From NCBI GenBank assembly GCA_029945855.1, contig JAQSDJ010000033.1, positions 6,799-40,176 of the forward strand: DNA of 33,378 nt. The letters are read 5' to 3'. The stretch comes from Lacunisphaera sp. (lineage in GTDB: Bacteria; Verrucomicrobiota; Verrucomicrobiia; Opitutales; Opitutaceae). A model generated the notes under the pieces. That model did no database searches. It was given only the letters and a program-made list of their open reading frames with translations, and was not told where the DNA came from. A program made the translations under genes and the position numbers. Shown in pieces: positions 1,324-25,823 of this stretch (position 1 is the stretch's first letter; the number at the start of each line of letters is the position of its first letter).

Positions 1324-1938
1324 TCATTTTCCTTTCGGCGCGTGCCGCTTTTCCAGCACGGCGAGCGCGGCGGCGAGTGACAGCTTCCGCACGCGCAGGA
1401 GCACGATGAGGTGGTAGAGCAGGTCCGCGGCCTCGCCGGCGAATTCCTTGTCGCCCGCGCGGAGCGCCGCCAGCGCCGTCTCGACGCCCTCCTCGCCGAC
1501 CTTTTGCGCGACGCGCGCCACGCCTTCCTTGGCCAGGCGGACGGTGTAGCTCTTGGTGTCGCCCGACTTGATCCGGGCGTTGATGGTTTGCTCCAGCTGC
1601 GCGAGGAAGCCGACGCCGCGGGCGCCGTCGTCGCCGAAGCAGCTGGGCGTGCCGCGGTGGCAGGTCGGGCCGTCGGGCCGGGCCGTGACGAGCAGCGTGT
1701 CGTTGTCGCAGTCGACCTTCACGTCGACGAGGTGCAGGAAATTCCTCGAGGACTCGCCCTTGACCCAGAGGCGTTGCTTGGAGCGGCTGAAGAAGGTGAC
1801 CTTCTTCGTGCGCAGCGTCTGCTTCAGCGCCGCGGCGTCCATGTAGCCAAGCATGAGCACCTGCAGGGTGGCGGCGTCCTGCACGATGGCGGGCACGAGG
1901 CCGGCGTTTTTCTTCCAGTCGATCTTGGGGCGTTTCAT
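1324..1938 (-). CDS. hisIE: Bifunctional phosphoribosyl-AMP cyclohydrolase / phosphoribosyl-ATP pyrophosphatase
   Basis: This cytosolic enzyme catalyses steps 2 and 3 of histidine synthesis: PR-ATP to PR-AMP, then ring opening to ProFAR. The cyclohydrolase half is N-terminal (about 1-115). It has the metal-binding DCDND motif (Cys77 with Asp76, Asp78, Asp80) and the zinc cysteines Cys93 and Cys100 in GPTCHRGTPSC. The pyrophosphohydrolase half (about 116-204) has the EEGVE motif at 150-154 and EAADLLYH at 170-177. The length of 204 is normal for fused HisIE. It is the last gene of the his operon. The ATG follows TTTCCCAA without a Shine-Dalgarno sequence. The fusion and terminal position match the enterobacterial operon type. 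Confidence 0.96.
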   Translation of the reverse strand: MKRPKIDWKKNAGLVPAIVQDAATLQVLMLGYMDAAALKQTLRTKKVTFFSRSKQRLWVKGESSRNFLHLVDVKVDCDNDTLLVTARPDGPTCHRGTPSCFGDDGARGVGFLAQLEQTINARIKSGDTKSYTVRLAKEGVARVAQKVGEEGVETALAALRAGDKEFAGEAADLLYHLIVLLRVRKLSLAAALAVLEKRHAPKGK

Positions 1939-2033
1939 TTGGGAAAGGTTTTAAACACAGAGTTCGCGGAGGGCGCGGAGAAATACAAAACTCAACTCTG
2001 GGTTCTCCGGGTTTAAAGGTTTGGCCGTCAGAA

Positions 2034-2801
2034 TCATGGCCGGATGGAAATGCCGTCGGCGATGAGCTGGGCTTTCAGGGCGGGAATCTTGATGGTGCCC
2101 TTGTGAAAGACCGACGCGGCAAGCGCGCCGTCCACGCCGGCCAGGCGGAAGACGTCGTGGAAGTGGGCGATGGTGCCGGCGCCGCCGGAGGCCACGAGCG
2201 GGATGCCCAGCACGGCGCGCACGAGCTTCAGCTGGGGGACATCGTAACCCTGCCGCATGCCGTCCTGGTTCATGCAGTTCAGCACGACCTCGCCGGCGCC
2301 GAGTTGCTGCGCCTCGCGGGCCCAGTCGATGGTCCGCCAGCGCGTGGCCTGGGTCTTGCCCGGGTCGCCGGTGTATTGCTTCACGAAGTAGTCGCCACCC
2401 TCCTGCCGGCTGTCGATGCCGACCACGACGCACTGGGAACCGAACTCGGCGGCCAGTTCGGTGATGAGCGCGGGATTTTCCAGCGCGGGGGAATTGATGG
2501 AGATCTTGTCCGCCCCGCCGTGCAGGATCTGGCGGGCCCCGTCGAGCGAGCGGATGCCGCCGGCCACGCAGAAGGGAATGTCGAGCACGCGGGCGACGCG
2601 GGTCACCCAGTCGGTCGAGACCGTGCGGCCGTCGCTGCTGGCGGTGATGTCGTAGAATACCAGCTCGTCGGCCCCCTCGTCGCGGTAGCGCTGGGCGAGT
2701 TCGATGATATCGCCCACGATCTCGTGGTCGCGGAACTGCGTGCCCTTGACGACCTGGCCGTCGCGGACGTCGAGGCAGGGAATGATGCGGCGGGCTAACA
2801 T
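2034..2801 (-). CDS. hisF: Imidazole glycerol phosphate synthase, cyclase subunit
   Basis: HisF is a (beta/alpha)8 barrel. It uses ammonia from HisH to convert PRFAR to imidazole glycerol phosphate and AICAR (histidine step 5). The catalytic aspartates are in place: Asp11 (PCLDVRDG) and Asp130 (VVVGID). The phosphate-binding ends VAGGIRS (about 79-85) and ASGGAGT are present. At 255 residues it is full length. By memory of E. coli HisF, blocks such as [28 protein letters not shown] and [12 protein letters not shown] are very similar, suggesting the gamma-proteobacterial HisF lineage. The start ATG lies after ACTCCCAA. The roughly 95-nt gap to hisIE (1939-2033) contains a short inverted repeat TTTAAAC/GTTTAAA (1950-1956, 2011-2017). 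Confidence 0.97.
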
Positions 2802-2841
2802 TTGGGAGTGAAAGTGAGAGGGAAGGTGAAAGTGGGCCGAC

Positions 2842-3570
2842 TCAGACGGAAAGGGCCTCTTTTAGCGTGAATTTCTTCTCGTAGAGCGCGCGGCCGACAA
2901 TGGCGCCGGCGGCGCCGGTGGGCTGCAGCGCGCGCAAATCGTCGAGCGACGACACGCCGCCCGAGGCTTGGATCTGGAGCGAGGGGAATTTCTTCACGAG
3001 GGCGGCATAGAGCGCGGTGTTCGGGCCGGTCAGCTTGCCGTCGCGGCTGATGTCGGTGCACAAGATGTGAACCAGGCCGGCGGCCAGGTAGTCGTTCAGA
3101 AAATCGTCGAGTGCGACCCCCGTGGTTTCCTGCCAGCCGGCGGCGGCGATGCGGGGCGTGCCGGTCGGATCAAGACGGACATCGGGCGAAAGAATGATGT
3201 GCCGGGCGCCGAAGCGGGCAAACCAGCCCTTGACGCGAGCAGGTTCGCGCACGGCGAGGGAACCGACGATCACCCGCTGAGCGCCGGAGGCCAGCAGGGC
3301 CTCGACCTGGGACTCATCGCGAATGCCGCCGCCGGTTTGGACGAGCAGGCCGCTTTCGCGGGCGAGCTGCTGGACGAGGGGAGTCTGGCGCCGGGTCGGA
3401 TCCTTGGTGCCGTCGAGGTCGACGACATGGAGCCAGGTGGCGCCGGCCGCGGCGAAGTCCCGGGCCACGGCAAGCGGGTCGGTGCCGTAGGTCGTTTCCT
3501 GGTCGAACTTACCCTCGGTCAGGCGCACGACGCGCCCACCGCGAAGGTCGATGGCTGGGTAGATGATCAT
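2842..3570 (-). CDS. hisA: ProFAR isomerase (HisA)
   Basis: HisA converts ProFAR to PRFAR by an Amadori rearrangement (histidine step 4). The 242-residue half-barrel duplicate begins [17 protein letters not shown], with catalytic Asp8 and Asp130 (SPDVRLD) and the glycine-rich phosphate sites QTGGGIR (about 79-84) and QASGGVSS. The open frame continues far upstream, but the family N-terminus fixes the start at 3570; an upstream start would add unrelated sequence. The residues before Asp130 read LSP rather than the more usual hydrophobic LAL. The 59-nt gap to hisH contains a 21-nt palindromic motif (3596-3616) shared with the hisB/hisC junction. Confidence 0.95.
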
Positions 3571-3595
3571 GATTGCGCGGTCGGATCCGGATAAT

Positions 3596-3616
3596 TTGTC
3601 AATTAATACGTTACAA
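3596..3616. promoter_or_regulatory. 21-nt imperfect palindrome in the hisH-hisA gap
   Basis: On the minus strand this reads TTGTAACGTA-T-TAATTGACAA, matching the perfect palindrome at 5404-5424 at 17 of 21 positions. It lies 26 nt upstream of the hisA start. It could be an operator or internal promoter element (it contains a TTGACA hexamer on the minus strand) or a small repeat. Function is not known. Confidence 0.5.
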
Positions 3617-3629
3617 ACGTGCGGGGGGC

Positions 3630-4223
3630 TCAGACGCGGCCCTCCACGAAATTTTTCAGCAGGCGGGCGCCGGCGGGGCCGGAACGCTCGGGGTGGAACT
3701 GGACGCCGGAGAAGTTGCCGCGCTGCACGATGGCGGTGAACGGCCGGCCGTGGTCGCAGCTGGCGACGGTGAAGGCGTTCACCGGGGCGGCGTAGCTGTG
3801 CACGAAGTAGAAGCGGGCGTCGGGGCCGATGCCGTCGAGCAGGCCGGGATCCCGGCCGGTCAGGACCGTGTTCCAGCCCATGTGCGGGACCGTGATGCCG
3901 GGCGACTCGGGCAGCAGCGCCACCGTGCCGGGAATCAGCCCGAGCGTCTCGGTCGGGCCCTCCTCGGAATTTTCGAAGAGCAACTGCATGCCGAGGCAGA
4001 TGCCGAGCACCGGCTGGGTGAGGCCGCGGACGCAATCGACGAGTCCCTTGGCCTGCAGGCGCTTCATGCCCTCGACGGCGGAACCGACGCCGGGGAGGAT
4101 GACGCGTGTGGCCGCGCGGATGACCGCGGGGTCGGCCGTGAGTTCGCTTTGCACGCCGAGCCGCTCGAGCGCGAAGCGCACCGATGCGATGTTGGCGCCG
4201 CCGCTGTCGACGATGGCTAGCAT
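3630..4223 (-). CDS. hisH: Imidazole glycerol phosphate synthase, glutaminase subunit
   Basis: HisH is a class I (triad) glutamine amidotransferase. It hydrolyses glutamine and passes ammonia through HisF in histidine step 5. The catalytic triad is Cys76 (LGICLGMQLLF), His177 and Glu179 (GVQFHPERSG). The oxyanion region around PGVGS (44-48) is present. The length of 197 is standard. The ATG at 4223 follows ATATTTCCC, with no Shine-Dalgarno sequence. It lies between hisB and hisA, as in enterobacteria. A double-hairpin repeat (4233-4294) sits upstream in the gap to hisB. Confidence 0.96.
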   Translation of the reverse strand: MLAIVDSGGANIASVRFALERLGVQSELTADPAVIRAATRVILPGVGSAVEGMKRLQAKGLVDCVRGLTQPVLGICLGMQLLFENSEEGPTETLGLIPGTVALLPESPGITVPHMGWNTVLTGRDPGLLDGIGPDARFYFVHSYAAPVNAFTVASCDHGRPFTAIVQRGNFSGVQFHPERSGPAGARLLKNFVEGRV

Positions 4224-4232
4224 GGGAAATAT

Positions 4233-4294
4233 TGGAGCCGCACCGACCCCGGTGCGGAAGGGTCATCGTGCGCGGCGAGGTCGCCGCGCCTCCA
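4233..4294. repeat. REPIN-like double hairpin between hisB and hisH
   Basis: Hairpin 1 is CCGCACCG/CGGTGCGG (4238-4245/4250-4257) and hairpin 2 is GCGCGGCGA/TCGCCGCGC (4270-4278/4281-4289). The outer ends TGGAG (4233-4237) and CTCCA (4290-4294) are inverted. The overall shape matches the other REPIN-like elements, but the sequence family is different. Confidence 0.7.
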
Positions 4295-4308
4295 GCAAGA
4301 GGCATTCA

Positions 4309-5373
4309 TCAGAGGACTCCTTTGCTGCTCGGGATTTCCGTGCCGGCGCCGCGGGCGAGGGCGGGCTTGAGCGCGCGGCCGAAGCCCTTGAACAACGCCT
4401 CGACCATGTGGTGCGTGTTGTCGCCGGTGACGCTCATGTTCAAGGTCAGGGCGAGGTTGTCGCTGACCGATTTGAAGAAGTGCGCCACCATCTCGGTGGG
4501 CATTTCGCCGACGCGATCGCGCGGGAACTTGGCGTCGAAGACCAGCCAGGCCCGGCCGCTGAGGTCGAGGGCGACCTGGGCGAGGGATTCGTCCATGGGC
4601 ATGACAAAACCGTAGCGACCGATGCCACGCTTGTCGCCCAAGGCCTGCTTCAGCGCGCTGCCGAGGGCGAGGCCGGTGTCCTCGATCGTGTGGTGCTCGT
4701 CGATATGCAGGTCGCCCTCGCACGCGATGACCAGGCTGATGCCGGCATGGCGGGCGATCTGCTCCAGCATGTGGTCAAAGAATCCGAGTCCGGTCGCGAG
4801 TTTGACGGGGGCGGTGGCGTCGAGGTCCACCGTGACGGTGATCTTCGTCTCCTTGGTGTTCCGCACGACGGTGGCGCGGCGCGGGGCGTCGACCAGCTGG
4901 CGGGCGATTTCCGGCCAGCCGAGCGTCTTGCGGTCGTAGCGCAGGCCGCGGATGCCGAGGTTCTGGGCGAGAGTAACATCGGTCTCGCGATCACCGATGA
5001 CGGCGGACAGCTCGCGCGACCAGGTGACGTCCTTCATGTAGTCGGTCAGCAGGCCGAGCTTGGGCTTGCGGCAGTCGCAACGGTCGGCGGAGGTGTGCGG
5101 ACACACGCGCACGGCCTCGAAGTCGATCCCTTGGGAGGACAAGAGGTCGAGGAGCAGTTTCTGGGGCGGACGAAATTCCTCCTCGCGGAAGCTCGGGGTG
5201 CCGAGACCGTCCTGGTTGGTGACCATGACGAACTTCCAGCCGGCGTCGCGCAGCCGGAGCAGGGCGGGGATGACGGCGGGCTCGAGGGCGAGCTTGTCGA
5301 GGCGGTCGACCTGCTGGTCGAACGGCTCGGCGATGAGCGTGCCGTCGCGGTCGATGAAGAGTATTTTTTTCAT
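4309..5373 (-). CDS. hisB: Bifunctional histidinol-phosphatase / imidazoleglycerol-phosphate dehydratase
   Basis: The N-terminal HAD phosphatase (about 1-165) performs step 8 and the C-terminal IGPD domain (about 166-354) performs step 6. The HAD nucleophile motif is FIDRDGTL, with Asp8 and Asp10. A Cys/His cluster CPHTSADRCDCRKP (about 92-105) matches the zinc loop of HisB-N. IGPD metal-binding motifs are visible: FFDHMLEQIARHAG and HIDEHHTIEDTG, plus a later His near the C terminus (NTHHMVEALFK). The length of 354 fits the E. coli-type fusion. The fused form is typical of gamma-proteobacteria and Bacteroidetes and less usual elsewhere, so its presence here supports an imported operon type. 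Confidence 0.96.
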   Translation of the reverse strand: MKKILFIDRDGTLIAEPFDQQVDRLDKLALEPAVIPALLRLRDAGWKFVMVTNQDGLGTPSFREEEFRPPQKLLLDLLSSQGIDFEAVRVCPHTSADRCDCRKPKLGLLTDYMKDVTWSRELSAVIGDRETDVTLAQNLGIRGLRYDRKTLGWPEIARQLVDAPRRATVVRNTKETKITVTVDLDATAPVKLATGLGFFDHMLEQIARHAGISLVIACEGDLHIDEHHTIEDTGLALGSALKQALGDKRGIGRYGFVMPMDESLAQVALDLSGRAWLVFDAKFPRDRVGEMPTEMVAHFFKSVSDNLALTLNMSVTGDNTHHMVEALFKGFGRALKPALARGAGTEIPSSKGVL

Positions 5374-5403
5374 GGCGAGATCGGGCGGGACGAGAAGGGC
5401 AAT

Positions 5404-5424
5404 TTGTAACCTAATAGGTTACAA
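5404..5424. promoter_or_regulatory. 21-nt perfect palindrome at the hisC-hisB junction
   Basis: The plus strand reads TTGTAACCTA-A-TAGGTTACAA: two 10-bp arms around a single central base. The hisC stop codon (5419-5421) lies within it, and it ends 31 nt before the hisB start. A related copy is at 3596-3616. The size and symmetry suit a dimeric regulator, but no regulator is identified. Confidence 0.6.
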
Positions 5425-6522
5425 GGGCGGATTGGACAGTCGTGCCAAGACCTCCAGGGTGGCGTTGTTTTCTTCGGCGGTGCCGACGGTGAGGCGGATG
5501 TGATTGGGCACGTCCTTGCTGCGGTCGCGCCAGACGACGCCCGCGGCGCGGCCGGCGGCCATGATGCGGGCGGAGTCGGCGACCTCGATCAGCAGGTAGT
5601 TGGCGTCGCTTGGCCAGACGCGCTTCACCGCGGGTAATTTCGCCAGCGCGGTAGCGAGGCGCGCCCGCTCGGCGACAAGGGCAGCCACGGATTCGCGCGC
5701 GGCGGCCAGGCCGGCGGGCGTGAGCGCGGCGAGGGCGGCCGCCAGCACGGGGGCGGGCACGGGATAAGGGGCGATGACCTTTTGCAGCACGGCGATCACC
5801 GCCGGGTCGGCGATGGTCGTGCCGACGCGGGCACCGGCGAGACCGTAGGCCTTGGAGAGGGTGCGCAGGACGACGAGGTTGGGATTCGCCGCAATCTCGG
5901 CGGCGAGGCTCGGCTGGCCGGAGAAATCCACGTAGGCCTCGTCGACCACGACGACGGCACGGCTGGCGAGCGAGCGCACGAGCGACAGGACGCCGGCGCG
6001 ATCCAGCAGGTTGCCCGTCGGGTTGTTGGGCGAACAGAGGAAGACAAGCTTCACCTCCGGGGTGGTTGCCTGGAGCACGGCGGCGGCATCGAGGGCGAAG
6101 TTTTTTTCGCGGATGAGCGGCACGGTGACGGTGCGCGCACCCTGGATGCCGGCGGCCACGACATACATGCCGTAGGTCGGCGGCGTGATCAGAATGGCAT
6201 CCTGCCCGGCGCGGCAGAAGGTGCGGAGCAAGAGGTCGATCCCCTCGTCGGAACCGCGCGTGACCAGCACCTGCGCGGGAGTGACGCCGTAAAGGGTGGC
6301 GAGTTGCGCGACGAGATCGGCGGGCTGCGGCTCCGGGTAACGGTTGAGCAGCGGCATGTGCACCGAGGGCGTCTCGGGGTTCTCGTTGGCATCGAGCCAA
6401 ACCCATCGACTGGGCTCAGGGCCGGCGCGGCCGCCCTTGGATTCCTTGCGCGCGGAACTGTAGGCCGTCAGCGCGAGGATGTCGGGACGGACGAGGGCGA
6501 GGACTTGGTCGACGGGAGTCAT
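5419..6522 (-). CDS. hisC: Histidinol-phosphate aminotransferase
   Basis: HisC is a PLP enzyme that transaminates imidazole-acetol phosphate to histidinol phosphate (step 7). Fold type I motifs are present: LDANENP (about 43-49), the SPNNPTG loop (164-170), Asp194 in VVDEAY for the pyridine nitrogen, and Lys224 in TLSKAYGLAGARVG for the Schiff base. At 367 residues it is slightly longer than the E. coli enzyme, mostly from a polar insertion near residues 24-38 (ARKESKGGRAGPEPS). The start ATG at 6522 follows CTACCCAACCC, with no Shine-Dalgarno sequence. A REPIN (6530-6592) occupies the hisD-hisC boundary. Confidence 0.96.
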   Translation of the reverse strand: MTPVDQVLALVRPDILALTAYSSARKESKGGRAGPEPSRWVWLDANENPETPSVHMPLLNRYPEPQPADLVAQLATLYGVTPAQVLVTRGSDEGIDLLLRTFCRAGQDAILITPPTYGMYVVAAGIQGARTVTVPLIREKNFALDAAAVLQATTPEVKLVFLCSPNNPTGNLLDRAGVLSLVRSLASRAVVVVDEAYVDFSGQPSLAAEIAANPNLVVLRTLSKAYGLAGARVGTTIADPAVIAVLQKVIAPYPVPAPVLAAALAALTPAGLAAARESVAALVAERARLATALAKLPAVKRVWPSDANYLLIEVADSARIMAAGRAAGVVWRDRSKDVPNHIRLTVGTAEENNATLEVLARLSNPPL

Positions 6523-6529
6523 GGGTTGG

Positions 6530-6592
6530 GTAGGGCGAATCCTCAGGATGAGCCGTTGTTCGACACGGCTCGTCGGGGACGACTCGCCCTAC
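6530..6592. repeat. REPIN-like repeat overlapping the hisD 3' end
   Basis: GTAGGGCGAATCCTCAGGAT (from 6530) and the inverse of GTAGGGCGAGTCGTCCCCGA (ending 6592) form facing arms whose outer 9 bases are identical. Both arms continue into GAGCCG/CGGCTC. The right arm encodes the last 16 residues of HisD. Confidence 0.75.
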
Positions 6593-7892
6593 CAGCGGCA
6601 AGTAGATCGAGACGTATTTTCACGGCGCGCTGGTGGGCGGCGAGGCCTTCGGCGAGGGCAAGGCGCTCGACGACCGGGCCGAGTTTTTGCAGGCCGGCCG
6701 GGCCGGCGGTCTGCACCGTCATGGTGCGCTGGAAATCGGACAGGCCCAGGCCGCTGCAGGCGCGGGCCCAGCCGTAGGTCGGGAGGACGTGGTTGGTGCC
6801 GCTGGCGTAGTCGCCGAGCGACTCGGGCGTCAGGTCGCCGAGAAAGACGGAGCCGGCGGTGGTGATGTCCGCCAGCAGCCCGCGCGGTCGGGCGACCTGC
6901 AAAATGAGGTGCTCGGGCGCGTAGCGGTTGGCGATCTCGACCGCCTCGTCGCGGCTGGCGGCGAGGAAGATGCGGCTGCGCTCCAGCGCGCGGCGGGCGA
7001 TGGCGGCGCGCGGCAGCGTGGCGAGTTGCGTGGCGAGCGCGGCTTGGACGCGCGCGGCGAATTTCTTTGAAAAAGCGACGAGCACCACCTGCGAGTCCGG
7101 GCCGTGCTCGGCCTGCGAGAGGAGATCGGCGGCGACGAAGGCGGGGTTGGCGCGGTTGTCGGCGATCACCAGCACCTCGGACGGTCCGGCCGGCAGGTCG
7201 AACGCGGCGCCGGCGGCATCACGCGACACCTGGAGCTTGGCCTCGGTGACGAAGGCGTTGCCCGGGCCGAAGAGCTTGTCGCATTTCGGCACACTGGCGG
7301 TCCCGTAGGCCATGGCCGCGATGGCCTGGGCGCCGCCGAGCTTGTAGACCGCGGTGATGCCACAGAGCCGCGCGGCGCAGAGGATCCACGGGTTGATGGC
7401 ACCGGTCTTGTCCGGCGGCGTGCAGAGGACGCGCCCGGGATTGTGGGCGAGCTGGGACGGGACGCCGAGCATCAGGGCGGTGGAGGGCAGCGGGGCGCTG
7501 CCGCCCGGCACGTAGAGGCCGACGCGGCCGATGGGACGCGCGGTCTTTTCGCAGACGATGCCCGGCGAGGTCTCGATCCGCAGGTCGTGAAACCGCTGGG
7601 CGGCGTGGAAGGTGTGGAGGTTGAGGTAGGCGGTGCGCAGCGCGGCCTTGTCGGCCCGGCCGAGCGCCGACTCGGCGGCGGCGAACTCGGCCTCCGTCAC
7701 GCGGAGCGAGCGCAGGGTGACGCCGTCGAATTTCTTCGTCAGCCGGCGCAGCGCCGCGTCGCCCTCGCGGCGCACGGCCGCGACGATCGCGCGCACGGCG
7801 GCGGCGACCGCGGGCTGCGCGGCCTGGGCCGGCCGCTGCAGGGCGGCGGTCCGGGCAGCGGGGGAGAGTTTTTTCCAGGGCAGGGGTTTCAT
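6543..7892 (-). CDS. hisD: Histidinol dehydrogenase
   Basis: HisD is the zinc- and NAD-dependent enzyme that oxidises histidinol to histidine in two steps (steps 9-10). The start chosen gives MKPLPWKKL and 449 residues; earlier in-frame codons add a Ser/Phe-rich unrelated stretch. Family motifs include GRVGLYVPGGSAPLPSTALML, the LLSQAEHGPDSQ block holding zinc Gln and His ligands, and NRYAPEHL, which supplies the catalytic Glu-His pair. The core ends at AVKIRLDLLAA; the last 16 residues (about 434-449, GRASRPRRAVSNNGSS) are encoded by a REPIN and have no counterpart that I recall in other HisD proteins. It lies between hisG and hisC. Confidence 0.95.
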   Translation of the reverse strand: MKPLPWKKLSPAARTAALQRPAQAAQPAVAAAVRAIVAAVRREGDAALRRLTKKFDGVTLRSLRVTEAEFAAAESALGRADKAALRTAYLNLHTFHAAQRFHDLRIETSPGIVCEKTARPIGRVGLYVPGGSAPLPSTALMLGVPSQLAHNPGRVLCTPPDKTGAINPWILCAARLCGITAVYKLGGAQAIAAMAYGTASVPKCDKLFGPGNAFVTEAKLQVSRDAAGAAFDLPAGPSEVLVIADNRANPAFVAADLLSQAEHGPDSQVVLVAFSKKFAARVQAALATQLATLPRAAIARRALERSRIFLAASRDEAVEIANRYAPEHLILQVARPRGLLADITTAGSVFLGDLTPESLGDYASGTNHVLPTYGWARACSGLGLSDFQRTMTVQTAGPAGLQKLGPVVERLALAEGLAAHQRAVKIRLDLLAAGRASRPRRAVSNNGSS

Positions 7893-7900
7893 GGGAAAAG

Positions 7901-7964
7901 CTGAAGGGCTGAATGACTGAAGCGCTGAAGTTAGCGAGGTGAAGAGAGGCATTCAGCCTTTCAG
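7901..7964. repeat. Imperfect inverted repeat with degenerate GCTGAA units in the hisG-hisD gap
   Basis: CTGAAGGGCTGAATG (7901-7915) and CATTCAGCCTTTCAG (7950-7964) are complementary at 14 of 15 positions. The spacer contains further GCTGAA/ACTGAA units every 8-9 nt, and another complementary unit lies at 7974-7984. It could form an intercistronic mRNA hairpin. Confidence 0.6.
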
Positions 7965-7988
7965 TTGTTCGGTCCTTCAGCCCTTGGT

Positions 7989-8900
7989 TCAGAGCATCAT
8001 CTTCTCGATCGGCAGCACAAGGATGCTGCTGGCGCCGGCTTTTTTGAGCGACTCCATGGTTTCCCAGAAGACGGCCTCCGAGCAGACGGCGTGGAGGGCG
8101 ACCTTGGTGTCGTCGCCGGCGAGCGGCAGGACGGTGGGGTTTTCCGAGCCCGGGAGGAGTTTCTTGATCTCCGCGAGGCTGGCCTTGGGGGCGTGGAGCA
8201 TGATGTATTTCGTGCCGGCGGCCTTCTGCACGCCGTCGAGCCGGCGGAGCAAAATCTCGAGCGCGTGCGACTTCTCGGGGGTGAGTTCCCGGGTGTTGCG
8301 CAGCAGGACGGCCGTGCTCTTGAAGATGGTCTCAACCGCGCGGAGCTTGTTGGCCTCGAGGGTGGAACCGCTGGCGACGAGGTCGCAGATGACCTCGGCC
8401 AGGCCGAGCCGCGGGGCGATCTCGACCGAGCCGCTGAGGTGGATGACCTCGGCCTTGACCTTCTGCTCGTCGAGATAGCGCTTGGTGAGGTGCGGGTAAG
8501 AGGTGGCGATGCGCAGGCCCTGCAGGTCCTTCGGGCCGGCGTAGGGGCGTTCCTCGGGGAGGGCGAGGGCGAGGCGGCAGCCGCCGAAATCGAGGGACCG
8601 CTCGATGAAGTAGCCGCCGACGGCGCCGTTGACGCGGCGCTCGAGCGCGGCCTCCTCGAGGACGTTGGTGCCGACGATGCCGAGGTCGCACACGCCGTCC
8701 ATGACGAGCTGCGGGATGTCGTCATCGCGGACAAACAGGATGTCGATGGGGAAGTTCTCGGCGTGGAGCAGGAGCTTCTCCTTGGGCGACTTGATGCGGA
8801 TGCCGCAGTTTTTCAGCAGATCGAGCGAATCCGTGGAAAGGCGGCCGCTTTTCTGGATGGCGAGGCGGAGGCGGTCTTTGGGCGGTGTGATGGGAGGCAT
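7989..8900 (-). CDS. hisG: ATP phosphoribosyltransferase, long form
   Basis: HisG catalyses the first committed step, ATP plus PRPP to PR-ATP, and is normally inhibited by histidine. The 303-residue protein has the catalytic lobes (about 1-225, with IAMQ-like [31 protein letters not shown] and [12 protein letters not shown] motifs). It also has a C-terminal regulatory domain (about 226-303, [47 protein letters not shown]). This is the hexameric, allosteric HisG-L type, so HisZ is not needed. The similarity to remembered E. coli HisG at the C terminus is striking. The start at 8900 ([11 protein letters not shown]) is set by family alignment. It is the first structural gene, about 130 nt after the attenuator. 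Confidence 0.96.
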
Positions 8901-9032
8901 GGCGGGAGGAAGGGAGAGTGAAAGGGACCCGCCGTCGCCCGATGGGCTATGGCGAGGCAAGAAGTTATGGTGAAAGATATATGTTTGGCGAGGCCCGGGC
9001 GGGCCGGTGACACGGAGAGGCCGGAACCGGGG

Positions 9033-9070
9033 CAACAAAAACCCCCGGCGGTTTGCACCTGCCGGGGGTT
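9033..9070 (-). terminator. Intrinsic terminator of the his attenuator
   Basis: On the minus strand the 10-bp stem AACCCCCGGC (9070-9061) / GCCGGGGGTT (9049-9040) has an 11-nt loop and is followed by a T-rich tail (GGGGGTTTTTGTT). It lies between the histidine-rich leader peptide and hisG, so as a plain terminator it would silence the operon. Its first arm can instead pair through CCGGC (9061-9065) with GCCGG (9109-9113) as an antiterminator. Confidence 0.8.
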
Positions 9071-9146
9071 GGGGAAATCGGGTTCCATCAGCCACGGGCA
9101 AGGCGCTTCCGGCCTTCCCGCGCGGGCCGGCTAGCTCAGGTGATGG
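9061..9146 (-). promoter_or_regulatory. Histidine attenuator: alternative pairing region
   Basis: On the minus-strand transcript, CCATCA inside the His codons (plus-strand 9141-9146) can pair with TGATGG (9085-9090). CCGGCC just after the leader stop (9125-9130) can pair with GGCCGG (9109-9114). GCCGG within the latter can instead pair with CCGGC of the terminator (9061-9065). These give mutually exclusive 1:2, 2:3 and 3:4 hairpins. A ribosome stalled on His codons would block segment 1, free segment 2 and prevent termination. The pairing was found by eye and not energy-checked. Confidence 0.65.
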
Positions 9147-9166
9147 TGGGGATGGGTGCGAACCAT
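9131..9166 (-). CDS. hisL: his operon leader peptide
   Basis: A 12-codon reading frame encodes [11 protein letters not shown] and a stop. It has four histidines in five consecutive codons (H-P-H-H-H), directly upstream of a terminator and hisG. This is the hallmark of a leader peptide for ribosome-mediated attenuation: low charged tRNA-His stalls the ribosome on the His codons and favours the antiterminator. The E. coli leader has seven His in a row, so this one is a shorter analogue. No Shine-Dalgarno sequence is visible (GGCCCTCCCCCC precedes the ATG), but the same is true of nearly every gene here. The symbol hisL is used by analogy of position and function, not by proven homology. Confidence 0.8.
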
Positions 9167-9324
9167 GGGGGGAGGGCCGTTTGATGGGGCGGGCGGGGGC
9201 GGGGCGCAAGTATTTTCTTGAACCGGCCGGCCGGGGGGCGTGGTCGCGCCGGCCCGCGCCGCGGGCTTGTATTTATGGCGGCAACGGTAAGATAATCGCC
9301 TCCGGTCCACCCCCATTCCTTGCT

Positions 9325-15560: not shown

Positions 15561-16532
15561 ATGGCGACGCGACCCCGCACCCTCGGCGAGTGGCTTTCCT
15601 GGGCGGAACGGCAATACGCCCGGCACCAGCTCGCGCTCGGCCAGGTGGCGACCTCGGCGCATGACGAGGCGCTCTACCTGCTGCTGCGCACCCTGGACCT
15701 GCCGCTCGACAGCAAGCCCGCCGTCTTAAGGAAGAAAACCACGGCGGAGGAAAACACCCGCCTTGCCGAGGTCTTCCGCCGCCGGATCGAGGAACACGTG
15801 CCCGCGGCCTACCTCACGCGCGAGGCCTGGCTGGGCGAGCACCGCTTCTACGTCGACGAGCGCGTCATCATTCCGCGGTCCTATTTTCTGGAGATCATCC
15901 CTCAATTGGCGGAATTGTTCGGTTGTAGGGCGGGGTCGCTGACCCCGCCGCGATCGACTCGAAGGCAGAAAGGCGGGATCAGCGATCCCGCCCTACAGGG
16001 GATCCGGCTGCCCACCGTCAAGCGCGCCGTGGACGTGTGCACCGGCTCGGGCTGCCTCGCCATCCTGCTCGCGCACCAGTTCCCGGCGGCGAAGGTCGAC
16101 GCGATCGAGCTTTCCACCGACGCGCTGGCGGTCGCGAAGTTCAACGTCGCAACCCACCGGCTGGCCACACGCGTGAAGCTTCACCATTCCGATGTCTTCG
16201 ACGCGGTGCCCCGCGTGAAATACGACGTCATCCTCAGCAACCCGCCCTATGTGCCGACCCGGGAGCTGCGCGACCTGCCGGCCGAGTTCAGGAACGAGCC
16301 CACGATGGCGCTCGACGGCGGGCGCGACGGGCTCGACATCATCCGCAAGCTCCTGCGCCAGTCCCGCGAGCGGCTGCAGCCGCACGGGGTCGTGGTGCTG
16401 GAGGTCGGCGGCCTGCGCGCGGCGATGGACCGCGCCTTTCCCGAGCTCGACCTGCACTGGATGCACACGATGGATGGCGAGGACTGCGTCTGCCTGGTCC
16501 AGGCCCACCGGCTTCAGGCTTGGCGCGGTTGA
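15561..16532 (+). CDS. prmB: Ribosomal protein L3 glutamine methyltransferase (PrmB-like) with REPIN insertion
   Basis: PrmB N5-methylates a glutamine of ribosomal protein L3. The helical N-terminal domain (about 1-95, LGEWLSWAERQYARHQLALGQ) is followed by YVDERVIIPRS (about 94-104). Then comes an abnormal Arg/Pro/Gly-rich stretch at residues about 122-146, then the SAM motif I DVCTGSGCLA (about 158-167) and the catalytic SNPPYVPTRELRDLP block typical of PrmB (NPPY plus DLP-EFRNEP). The abnormal stretch is encoded by a family A REPIN (15924-15997). The frame stays open through it, so the protein has an extended linker between substrate-binding and methyltransferase domains. The total of 323 residues is slightly above the family norm of about 300-310. 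Whether it remains active is unknown. Confidence 0.85.
   Translation: MATRPRTLGEWLSWAERQYARHQLALGQVATSAHDEALYLLLRTLDLPLDSKPAVLRKKTTAEENTRLAEVFRRRIEEHVPAAYLTREAWLGEHRFYVDERVIIPRSYFLEIIPQLAELFGCRAGSLTPPRSTRRQKGGISDPALQGIRLPTVKRAVDVCTGSGCLAILLAHQFPAAKVDAIELSTDALAVAKFNVATHRLATRVKLHHSDVFDAVPRVKYDVILSNPPYVPTRELRDLPAEFRNEPTMALDGGRDGLDIIRKLLRQSRERLQPHGVVVLEVGGLRAAMDRAFPELDLHWMHTMDGEDCVCLVQAHRLQAWRG
15924..15997. repeat. REPIN-like repeat, family A, inside prmB
   Basis: This is a 74-nt element identical in architecture to 1249-1322: TGTAGGGCGGGGTC-GCT-GACCCCGCC, a 22-nt spacer, then GGCGGGATC-AGC-GATCCCGCC-CTACA. The left arm differs from the other copies by A-T to G-C on both sides of its hairpin, so base pairing is kept. 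It is read through in frame by prmB. Confidence 0.92.
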
Positions 16533-17590: not shown

Positions 17591-17651
17591 TGTAGGTCGG
17601 GGTTTATCCCCGGGGTGTCGGGCGTAAAGGGCCCTTTATACCCGACCTACA
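17591..17651. repeat. REPIN-like repeat, family B (copy 1)
   Basis: The arm TGTAGGTCGGGGTTTATCCCCG (split: TGTAGGTCGG + GGTTTATCCCCG) faces an inverted arm ending CCCGACCTACA. Each arm contains its own hairpin (GGGG-TTTAT-CCCC and CGGGCGTAAAGGG/CCCTTTATACCCG). A shorter relative lies at 20988-21035. Confidence 0.8.
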
Positions 17652-18053: not shown

Positions 18054-18168
18054 ATGTTTGATGATTTCATCCAGTCCAACTCCGGTGCGCCTCCGATATT
18101 ACAGGCCCGGACGAAATATCCGAAATCTGGTCCTTGGCTGTTTTCAATGGGCGGCTGGTAAGTCTATT

Positions 18169-18388
18169 CCCTGAGGTTTGGGGAACCACTAATGAGTTTC
18201 GCCAATGGGGCGAAACTTTGGATTACTCCTTCGACTAATCGTCTCCGGTTCAGGTTTCGGGGTCTGCTGATCGCAGACCGGGAAAGCCAGCCGGCGATCA
18301 GCCGGCCCTCGAAACCCAGTGGCGGAGACGATTAGTCGGAGCCTGATCTTTAAGGACTCATCGTTGATTAATCCCAATAGTGGTAAAA
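18169..18388 (+). ncRNA. Structured element, copy 1 (candidate ncRNA or structured repeat)
   Basis: About 220 nt fold into a closed multi-helix structure. The closing stem is ACCACTA/TAGTGGT (18185-18191/18378-18384). Hairpin AGTTTCGCC/GGCGAAACT is at 18195-18203/18209-18217. A perfect 16-bp helix CGACTAATCGTCTCCG (18232-18247) pairs with 18323-18338. Helix GGTTTCG/CGAAACC is at 18253-18259/18310-18316. Inner hairpins are GGTCTGC/GCAGACC (loop TGATC, 18261-18279) and GCCGGC/GCCGGC (loop GATCA, 18290-18306), with mutually complementary loops. A 3' hairpin is at 18354-18374. Strand and transcription are not established; plus is given because the sigma operon follows on that strand. Confidence 0.6.
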
Positions 18389-18412
18389 CAACTCCGCTGC
18401 TTGGGTCAGCTC

Positions 18413-18632
18413 CCCTGAAGTTTGGGAACCACTAATCAGTTTCTCCAATGGGAGAAACTTGGGACTACCCCTCCGACTGATCGTCTCCGGTTCAGGTTCC
18501 GGGGAGTCCGCTGATCGCGGACTGGGAAGAACAGCCTGCGATTAGCAGGCCCCAAAGCCAATCGGCGGCGACGATGAGTCGCCGCACACCTCCAAGGATT
18601 CATCCATTGATGAATCCCATTAGTGGTAAAAA
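18413..18632 (+). ncRNA. Structured element, copy 2 (candidate ncRNA or structured repeat)
   Basis: This is a tandem copy of 18169-18388 at a 244-nt period. The closing stem is a perfect 9 bp, ACCACTAAT/ATTAGTGGT (18428-18436/18619-18627). Hairpin AGTTTCTCC/GGAGAAACT is at 18438-18459. Inner hairpins are AGTCCGC/GCGGACT (18505-18523, loop TGATC) and GCCTGC/GCAGGC (18534-18550, loop GATTA). The 3' hairpin GGATTCATC/GATGAATCC is perfect. The long helix 18474-18489/18566-18581 pairs at 14 of 16 positions and competes with a local hairpin GCGGCGAC/GTCGCCGC (18565-18585). Relative to copy 1, four base pairs changed on both sides while pairing was kept. Confidence 0.6.
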
Positions 18633-18748
18633 TTCTGGGGCTTGGAGATCACGACATTGGCTTTACCCACTGAAAACAGCGATGGGCCCGAAAACTTTTG
18701 CGTCGATTCCGCTGTAATACAGGCTGCCCGTCGGGGTTAATCCCCACG

Positions 18749-20974: not shown

Positions 20975-20987
20975 CCAGGCCGCCATG

Positions 20988-21035
20988 GAGGTCGGGGTTT
21001 ATCCCCGACACGTCGGGCGTAAAGCCCGACCTACA
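20988..21035. repeat. REPIN-like repeat, family B (copy 2, short)
   Basis: AGGTCGGGGTTTATCCCCGAC is matched as a hairpin arm by CGTCGGGCGTAAAGCCCGAC-CTACA on the right side (the two parts are shown unbroken only up to 20 nt elsewhere). The element lies between the convergent DUF2202 and methyltransferase genes. Confidence 0.75.
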
Positions 21036-21064
21036 ATTACGGCCACGAAAATATTGAAACCGCC

Positions 21065-24866: not shown

Positions 24867-25823
24867 TCACTGCAGGGCGTTGAAAAGCCAGCCGATGAGG
24901 GTCGTGCCAACCAGCACCACGAGGGAGAACATCACGAGCAGCCGGACGGTCATCACGCCCCGGAGCATGACCAGCTCGGGCAGCGACACGCCCACGGCGG
25001 AAAGCAGAAAGGCGAGGGCGGTGCCGAGCGGGACGCCCTTGGCCACGAAGGCCTCGAGCAGCGGCACGGTGGCGTTGGCGCTGACGTAGAGCGGCAGCCC
25101 GGCCAGCGAGGCCAGCGGCACGGTCCAGCTGCCGCGGCCGGCGAAGAGGTTTTGAAAGAATCCTTCGGGCACGAACCCGTGCATGGCGGCGCCGAGCAGC
25201 AGGGAACCGACCAACCAAGGGGCGATTTGTTTGAGGATATGGCCGCTGGTCTCCGCGGCATCCCGCAGGCGGGCGGTCCAGCCGTGTAGCGGGGCCTCCG
25301 CCTCTTCCCCGGCGGCGAGCACGGCGCCAGGCACCAGCCAGCGCTCCGCGTGCAGCAACGTGAGCGCCAGTCCCCCGCTGATGCCCAGGCCGATCCCGGC
25401 CGCCGCGTAGGCGAGGGCGAATTTCCAGCCGAAGAGGGCGGCCAGCAGGGCCACGGCGATCTCGTTGACCAGCGGCGAGGTGATCAGGAAGGCGAAGGCC
25501 ACCCCGATGGGAAACCGCGCCTGCACGAAGCCGAGGAACACCGGCACCGAGGAGCAGGAGCAGAAGGGAGTCAGCGCCCCGAACAGCGCGGCGGCGGGAT
25601 AGCCAAAAAAACGGCCGCCGGGCCGGTCCAAGGCGCGCCGGATCTTCTCCAGGGGCAGCGCGCCGCGGATCAGGGCCATGAGAAAGGCCACGCCGGCCAC
25701 CAGCACGGTGATCTTCAGCAGGTCGTAGACGAAAAAATGCAGCGCCGCGCCGGCGCCGGCCGCCGGGTCCAGCCCCGTCGCGCGCAGCACCGTGTCGGCA
25801 ATCCATTCAGCCCAGGTCCACAT
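24867..25823 (-). CDS. DUF318/UPF0718 (ArsP-like) permease
   Basis: This 318-residue protein has eight or more predicted helices. The family signature TPFCSCSSVPVFLGF (about 85-99) with Cys88 and Cys90 is present, as is the matching second half ANATVPLLEAFVAKGVPLGTALAF. DUF318 permeases include ArsP for organoarsenicals and proteins linked to metal efflux or thiol compounds; the Cys-x-Cys motif suggests binding of a soft metal or metalloid. It is clustered with a YeiH-type permease, DUF2892 and DUF134 genes on the same strand. No ars regulator or reductase is nearby, so the substrate is open. Confidence 0.88.
   Translation of the reverse strand: MWTWAEWIADTVLRATGLDPAAGAGAALHFFVYDLLKITVLVAGVAFLMALIRGALPLEKIRRALDRPGGRFFGYPAAALFGALTPFCSCSSVPVFLGFVQARFPIGVAFAFLITSPLVNEIAVALLAALFGWKFALAYAAAGIGLGISGGLALTLLHAERWLVPGAVLAAGEEAEAPLHGWTARLRDAAETSGHILKQIAPWLVGSLLLGAAMHGFVPEGFFQNLFAGRGSWTVPLASLAGLPLYVSANATVPLLEAFVAKGVPLGTALAFLLSAVGVSLPELVMLRGVMTVRLLVMFSLVVLVGTTLIGWLFNALQ

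Follow-up and report, generated by a model that had tools for sequence, protein, structure and literature searches.

The window analyzed here is a 33,378-nt stretch of a Lacunisphaera sp. contig (JAQSDJ010000033.1, positions 6,799 to 40,176). On its minus strand, at about 1324–9200, lies a run of ORFs that, judged by eye, are putative histidine-biosynthesis-like genes. A transposon-like insertion occupies positions 18121–18696 and contains two tandem copies of a structured sequence, hereafter the core. The initial annotation had described the region 18169–18632 as a pair of ~220-nt repeats with a 244-nt period. The two repeats are real, but each core is ~200 nt long (18185–18384 and 18428–18627), with starts 243 nt apart and 80% identity between copies, and the full unit is wider, since it includes terminal inverted repeats (TIRs) and a target-site duplication (TSD). 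The element itself measures 560 bp (18129–18688). It is bounded by imperfect 23-bp TIRs, GGTCCTTGGCTGTTTTCAATGGG on the left (18129–18151) and, as the reverse complement, GGCCCATCGCTGTTTTCAGTGGG on the right (18666–18688), and is flanked by an 8-bp TSD whose left copy, CGAAATCT (18121–18128), differs by one mismatch from the right copy, CGAAAACT (18689–18696). No ORF of 80 or more amino acids lies wholly inside 18129–18688; hence, the window element carries no transposase gene. Tandem arrays of three cores are present at two other loci (L211 in genome G005 and L258 in genome G105), so the tandem pair in the window is not unique.

Each core has the limits ACCRCTAAT...ATTAGYGGT and consists of a terminal stem (ACCACTAAT.../...AATAGTGGT in copy 1) enclosing six local hairpins, A–F. 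Read on the plus strand, copy 1 contains hairpin A at 18196–18216 (helix 2 of the structure tested for covariation); hairpin B at 18228–18248, with pentaloop TAATC (18236–18240) and a conserved 3 × 3 mismatch loop; hairpin C at 18261–18279, with pentaloop TGATC (18268–18272); hairpin D at 18290–18306, with pentaloop GATCA (18296–18300); hairpin E at 18322–18342, with pentaloop GATTA (18330–18334); and hairpin F at 18354–18374 (helix 10). Copy 2, a tandem duplicate, contains the same six hairpins, and both copies are matched on the plus strand by the covariance model described below (at 24983–25182 and 25226–25425 of contig C33 in genome G000). Across the family the pentaloops are TNATC in hairpins B and C and GATNA in D and E; the hairpin tips (C-TNATC-G and C-GATNA-G) hardly vary and are among the most conserved parts of the core. 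Within a core, hairpins A and F, B and E, and C and D are reverse-complement partners. The core is therefore symmetric under reverse complementation, and full copies match the covariance model on both strands. Each window copy folds well below its dinucleotide shuffles on either strand (z = −8.05 and −6.02 for the plus strand, −9.79 and −5.77 for the minus strand).

The initial annotation had listed four base pairs that change on both sides between the two copies and still pair. All eight bases were confirmed as stated (G18201–C18211 to T18444–A18453, G18261–C18279 to A18505–T18523, T18265–A18275 to C18509–G18519, and G18293–C18303 to T18537–A18547), and multi-copy covariation and same-locus comparisons showed such structure-preserving change to be far stronger than two copies alone could reveal. 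We aligned 36 of 46 delimited copies, leaving out some near-duplicates along with copies that had insertions or unusual lengths, and built covariance model R1 from this alignment. In the local-hairpin structure, 94.7% of the cells at paired positions were paired, and 25 of the 49 pairs had changed on both sides. The covariation score for the 36 copies was 0.266, compared with an average of 0.107 for column shuffles and at most 0.062 for slid controls. A long helix formed between hairpins B and E was rejected as the main fold: its energy was similar (−119.7 versus −117.4), but its covariation was lower (0.202). The 3 × 3 mismatch in hairpin B is itself conserved, with Watson-Crick pairs at offsets 4, 5, and 6 in only 1, 4, and 0 of 58 copies, respectively, while the pairs that flank it are maintained. 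The loops of hairpins C (TGATC) and D (GATCA) had been proposed to kiss. Covariation lends this proposal no support, as their variable loop bases are complementary in just 24 of 61 copies, a value equaled by 31% of shuffles; a modest excess of complementarity was seen for the variable loop bases of B and E (30/58) and of C and E (34/61), each reached in 0.16% of shuffles.

A search with R1 detected the core in 40 of 150 sampled Opitutaceae genomes, representing 18 of 49 genera. In a class-wide sample, 8 of 236 genomes matched, and all 8 were Opitutaceae; both samplings used stricter filters, by which weak matches are lost. A DNA search gave matches in 22 of 95 genomes, own genome included; the 9 matches in the latter include the window's two copies plus an antisense self-match. 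With R1, the matches listed for the same genome fall in at least 12 distinct places, copy numbers being lower bounds in which both strands count. A pattern scan of named genomes gave 44 loci, 41 of them assigned to Opitutaceae, Opitutia, Opitutus, Verrucomicrobia, Lacunisphaera, or Oleiharenicola. Two other apparent hosts, Microbispora (L193) and a Rhodocyclaceae metagenome-assembled genome (MAG; L204), were rejected because they had no R1 match at E 0.01. A contig from a Cytophagaceae MAG (L197) did match R1, with 140 bits, and is probably misbinned. No match to the core pattern was found among viral contigs. The copies are spread mostly between genes, with 2 of 61 overlapping a called gene.

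Many cores, including the window pair, are enclosed by inverted repeats of the form GGTTCCTCGCTRYTTTCAGTGGG and its complement, which we designate TIR-a. Among the 21 distinct TIR-a elements in the loci examined, the 8-bp TSDs were perfect in nine, had one mismatch in five, two mismatches in three, and three to six in four. Thus 14 of 21 elements had at most one mismatch, compared with 0.25% of shuffled partners (2,000 draws); at most two mismatches were found in 2.15% of the same draws. The TIR-a pattern occurs 95 times in G005, 27 times in G010, 10 times in G015, 11 times in G163, and, at the stringency used, just twice in the window's own genome, G000, both times at the window element; a reversed-pattern control gave 0, 1, 0, 1, and 2 occurrences, respectively; the G000 figure, being equal to its control, carries no meaning alone.

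An empty site was found for a core copy other than those of the window. Two genes that we call, by eye, PP2C-like and GGCT-like enclose a core in G015 and G010, and the G015 copy is flanked by an 8-bp duplication with one mismatch (CCATGAAC/CCATGACC). Matches to the two genes overlap or lie no more than 20 bp apart in 9 of 21 genomes of the genus (G001, G003, G004, G009, G011, G013, G017, G019, and G020), and the core is present in 2. Others have longer gaps, one with a palindromic insertion of a different, CTGAGCGAAGCGAAGAATCC type at the place where G015 and G010 have the core (L306 in G018).

The window element is MITE-like in having TIRs and a target duplication, in being dispersed, and in carrying no gene; its autonomous source was not found. 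TIR-a appears to resemble the ends of ISL3-family elements. The search for its enzyme covered the Pfam ISL3 transposase model (PF01610), which matched in none of 6 genomes, and inspection by eye of the match list for five genomes, whose drafts are broken at repeats, revealed no convergent TIR-a pair more than about 600 bp apart.

Ends of a second kind, TIR-b, resemble CTAGGGAGTGT; in nine elements, 16 of the 18 ends have TA. The window's genome contains three TIR-b copies that are 98% identical over ~319 bp (L225–L227), and G013 contains five that are 93%–97% identical over ~252–258 bp (L233–L237), L234 and L236 reaching 366. TIR-b also bounds core-less MITEs of 151 and 172 bp, as well as an insertion sequence of 868 bp in G147; the transposase of the latter matches the NCBIfam IS5 family model NF033580 with 227.8 bits (cut-off 110). 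TIR-b is thus shared with an IS5-family element, whereas the TIRs of the window element are different and come with an 8-bp duplication. Lying inside both TIR-a and TIR-b, the core is therefore carried by no fewer than two kinds of non-autonomous MITE-like element and travels among as many unrelated TIR types. In G188, a further pair of copies (L244/L245) has the ends TAGAGCGTTTT. The same genome holds cores in repeats of ~390–420 bp (L247–L250) with other ends, possibly a further end type, and with an extra GC-rich segment inside hairpin B.

Many other cores have no recognizable TIR. Directly around the core itself, no common target duplication was found, since each of the 15 top-ranked offsets rested on one copy.

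Covariation is usually regarded as strong evidence of structured RNA, and the initial annotation had left the choice between an RNA and folded DNA of a mobile element open. As an RNA, the core would be a cis-regulatory leader or a small RNA that is amplified as a repeat and selected for the fold of its transcript. The very stable fold, the strong covariation, the mostly intergenic location, and the maintenance of the fold at shared loci (see below) are all in line with this. Structured RNA, however, tolerates G–U pairs and not A–C mismatches. For this comparison, 100 chosen loci were searched with R1, and of the 212 matches the best 150 were aligned; these fell in 79 places, and 61 copies less than 90% identical were retained. 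Their stem cells comprised 2,809 Watson-Crick pairs, 70 G–T, 51 A–C, and 47 other combinations. The ratio of 70:51 is a slight lean toward wobble (p = 0.10), obtained with copy orientation picked by model score, which tends to favor G–T. An RNase P control from 21 genomes of the genus, based on a fold predicted by RNAalifold and not on that of Rfam, gave 237:62, or 205:119 when folded backwards.

Gene context, determined with our own codon-score gene caller, also speaks against RNA. There is no orientation preference: 15 of the 61 copies lie in sense and 12 in antisense orientation between co-directional genes, and 13 between divergent and 6 between convergent genes, with another 13 located at contig edges and 2 overlapping an ORF. 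Wobble pairs in the 27 co-directional copies number 13 on the inferred transcript-sense strand and 36 on the opposite strand. This is the opposite of what RNA selection produces, and a clear excess of G–U over A–C on the transcribed strand, as expected of a structured RNA, was not seen. Nor did any Rfam family match at its gathering cut-off, in agreement with the earlier remark that the repeat resembles no RNA family; a relaxed E-value gave six matches, all far under their gathering scores (the best with 17.1 bits versus 48.5). A structured RNA is therefore unlikely. The proposed riboswitch-like role tied to the adjacent ECF sigma gene finds no support either, because copies occur in co-directional, divergent, and convergent contexts in both orientations, and neighboring genes differ among the copies inspected. 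Of the two options first offered, DNA is favored by the TIRs, the 8-bp duplications, the empty sites, and the recent dispersed copies, as well as by the equal behavior of both strands, which fold alike, and the lack of a wobble excess in the transcript sense. Matched changes thus most likely preserve the core folds at the level of DNA, not of RNA.

To follow the fold at fixed positions, we compared five pairs of copies, each at the same locus in different species. Paired sites differed at 38 of 484 positions and unpaired sites at 126 of 473 (Fisher p = 5.9 × 10^−15), a roughly 3.4-fold lower frequency of change at paired sites. Eight compensated double changes were observed at the five loci; random placement of changes averaged 0.84, and none of 2,000 simulations reached 8. 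Against this stand 14 pairs in which a change in one partner created or removed a mismatch; in 8 others, one partner changed and pairing persisted. Immediate flanks are clearly homologous only for L303/L304, L069/L240, and L154/L362; for L166/L242 just one of the two flanks matches, and for L017/L043 only sequence beyond 60 nt does. The three pairs with homologous flanks alone gave 28/292 versus 80/281 and contain 7 of the 8 double changes.

Such maintenance of the fold at fixed loci is unexpected for a dead MITE; either the core does more, or template switching homogenizes the stems. Template switching between the arms of a hairpin could keep stems perfect and mimic compensation even if folding were not selected. 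In its favor, short inverted repeats are plentiful in the elements, their paired sites change together, and PMC8794818 reports such events for rRNA genes, in which compensatory-looking changes arise and loops are retained. Homogenization should, however, erase the 3 × 3 mismatch of hairpin B, which persists; moreover, the tips are nearly invariant, and paired sites change less than unpaired ones. The persistent mismatch and the invariant tips indicate that template switching is not the whole story, and as the main explanation of the intact stems we regard it as less likely.

If the core does more, it may serve the host: having arrived as MITE cargo, it would now act at some loci, for instance in bidirectional insulation or DNA topology, with selection keeping the fold after decay of the TIRs. 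This would fit the compensated folds at shared loci that lack a recognizable TIR, and also the site between rnhC and mutY (names from family matches, the mutY score being below its strict cut-off). At this site we examined 31 loci, 30 of them from the best of 141 matching genomes, the other being L039. Of these, 26 contain both genes; the core lies between the divergent genes in 4 (G004, G013, G121, and G147) and is absent from 22. The cores in this intergenic region (L039, L359, L355, and L362) come from three genera. With 22 of 26 loci lacking a core, either repeated loss or repeated insertion at a favored site must be allowed, and common descent of these copies is not certain. A single ancient insertion was rejected as an explanation: immediate flanks are common to three genera, yet numerous congeners have no core here, and the immediate flanks of the copy in G004 (L039) are different. 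Comparisons with L039 were accordingly left out of the five-pair sum; they gave 16/97 versus 33/94 with 5 compensated doubles, and 16/97 versus 38/92 with 4. Absence from most relatives here and at the nine compact PP2C–GGCT junctions means that the core is dispensable at these sites, and the copies have no common gene context. A domesticated host element is thus a rather doubtful reading.

The hairpins also recall REP sequences, which would be mobilized as single strands by Y1 (HUH) transposases of the RAYT type. Y1_Tnp was detected in 13 of 19 genomes but was missing from G002, G006, and G008, each of which has only a ~27-nt core match, and two Y1 loci in G012 have cores within 2 kb. The two Y1 proteins near cores are, however, dissimilar by eye, 61 of 63 Y1 loci (some overlapping) have no core in the inspected flanks, and G001 and G003 possess Y1 genes without a core match. 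In addition, the core consensus has no GTAG tag, and its CGTC lies inside hairpin B and is not a terminal tag. TIRs together with an 8-bp target duplication fit a DDE enzyme. Mobilization by a RAYT is, on this evidence, very improbable.

We consider it likely that the window pair forms the interior of a single non-autonomous, MITE-like DNA transposon bounded by TIRs, with a hairpin core that acts at the DNA level. The usual single core would have been duplicated in tandem within this element. Transposases acting in trans would move such elements via their TIRs, with an IS5-family enzyme as the candidate for TIR-b; the TIRs would be cut and joined by enzymes supplied from elsewhere. The folded form presumably matters as DNA, either as a cruciform or as hairpins on single-stranded DNA during replication, and its hairpins would be selected or mutationally kept. 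The equivalence of both strands and the high conservation of the tips favor a cruciform, or hairpins exposed by replication, to which a protein may bind. The core would then probably be a platform for a protein that reads the hairpin tips, and this putative platform might benefit the element or, at old sites, the host. Against this transposon reading, no autonomous TIR-a partner was found, and many cores lack a recognizable TIR. In a tentative alternative, the core is an independent DNA module, selected for its structure, passed between transposons with unrelated ends, and retained by hosts after decay of the ends, its tips being read by a protein.

Among known systems, bacterial MITEs and the Yersinia element YPAL/RU-2 are closest in kind (PMC2229807, PMC10969869), and REPs are close as well (PMC3733652). 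As described in PMC2229807, Correia/NEMIS, ERIC/RU-1, RUP, and RPE MITEs are similarly short and intergenic, with TIRs, a target duplication, and stable stem-loops, most such MITEs forming a stem-loop by end-to-end pairing. In contrast, the elements described here have a six-hairpin core with conserved tips, which occurs in elements with different TIRs and whose covariation was demonstrated statistically both among genera and at shared loci. YPAL/RU-2 is, by its description in the same source, alike in its size (~168 bp), its internal inverted repeats, its composition, which is not A+T-rich, and its target duplications. It differs in having internal inverted repeats and duplications of 3–26 bp where the window element has TIRs and 8 bp, and its host group is unrelated to Opitutaceae. 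REP/BIME/REPIN sequences with their RAYTs are also hairpins located between genes, in the account of PMC3733652, but the core is much longer, lacks the GTAG tag in its consensus, and is associated with TIRs and an 8-bp duplication. What sets the core apart is that it is a symmetric array of six hairpins, that its ends are exchangeable, and that its covariation has been quantified. Among the matches listed by a literature search within one collection, none was a prior report naming this element.

Mitochondrial double-hairpin elements are likewise mobile hairpins with variable, compensated stems, but they are organellar, much shorter, and have two hairpins. For searches that rely on covariation, the core is a caution: its covariation is very strong, yet it is strand-symmetric and tied to mobile DNA, so covariation scans may report false RNAs. 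It also poses two testable questions, whether selection or template switching lies behind the intact DNA hairpins, and how the core enters transposons with different ends.

The window contains other palindromic repeats, belonging to families that begin with GTAGGTCGGG... (17591–17629 and 20986–21038) and GTAGGGCGGGATC... (29–58, 1249–1322, and 15923–16005), with members of each in both orientations. They are probably GTAG-type REPs like those of Opitutus terrae, a species highly enriched in GTAG repeats according to PMC3733652. At L303 and L304, in both species, a ~31-nt GTAG-containing hairpin is inserted within hairpin B of the core, and the query stretch with this hairpin (at about 520–555) gave short matches in many genomes of the genus.
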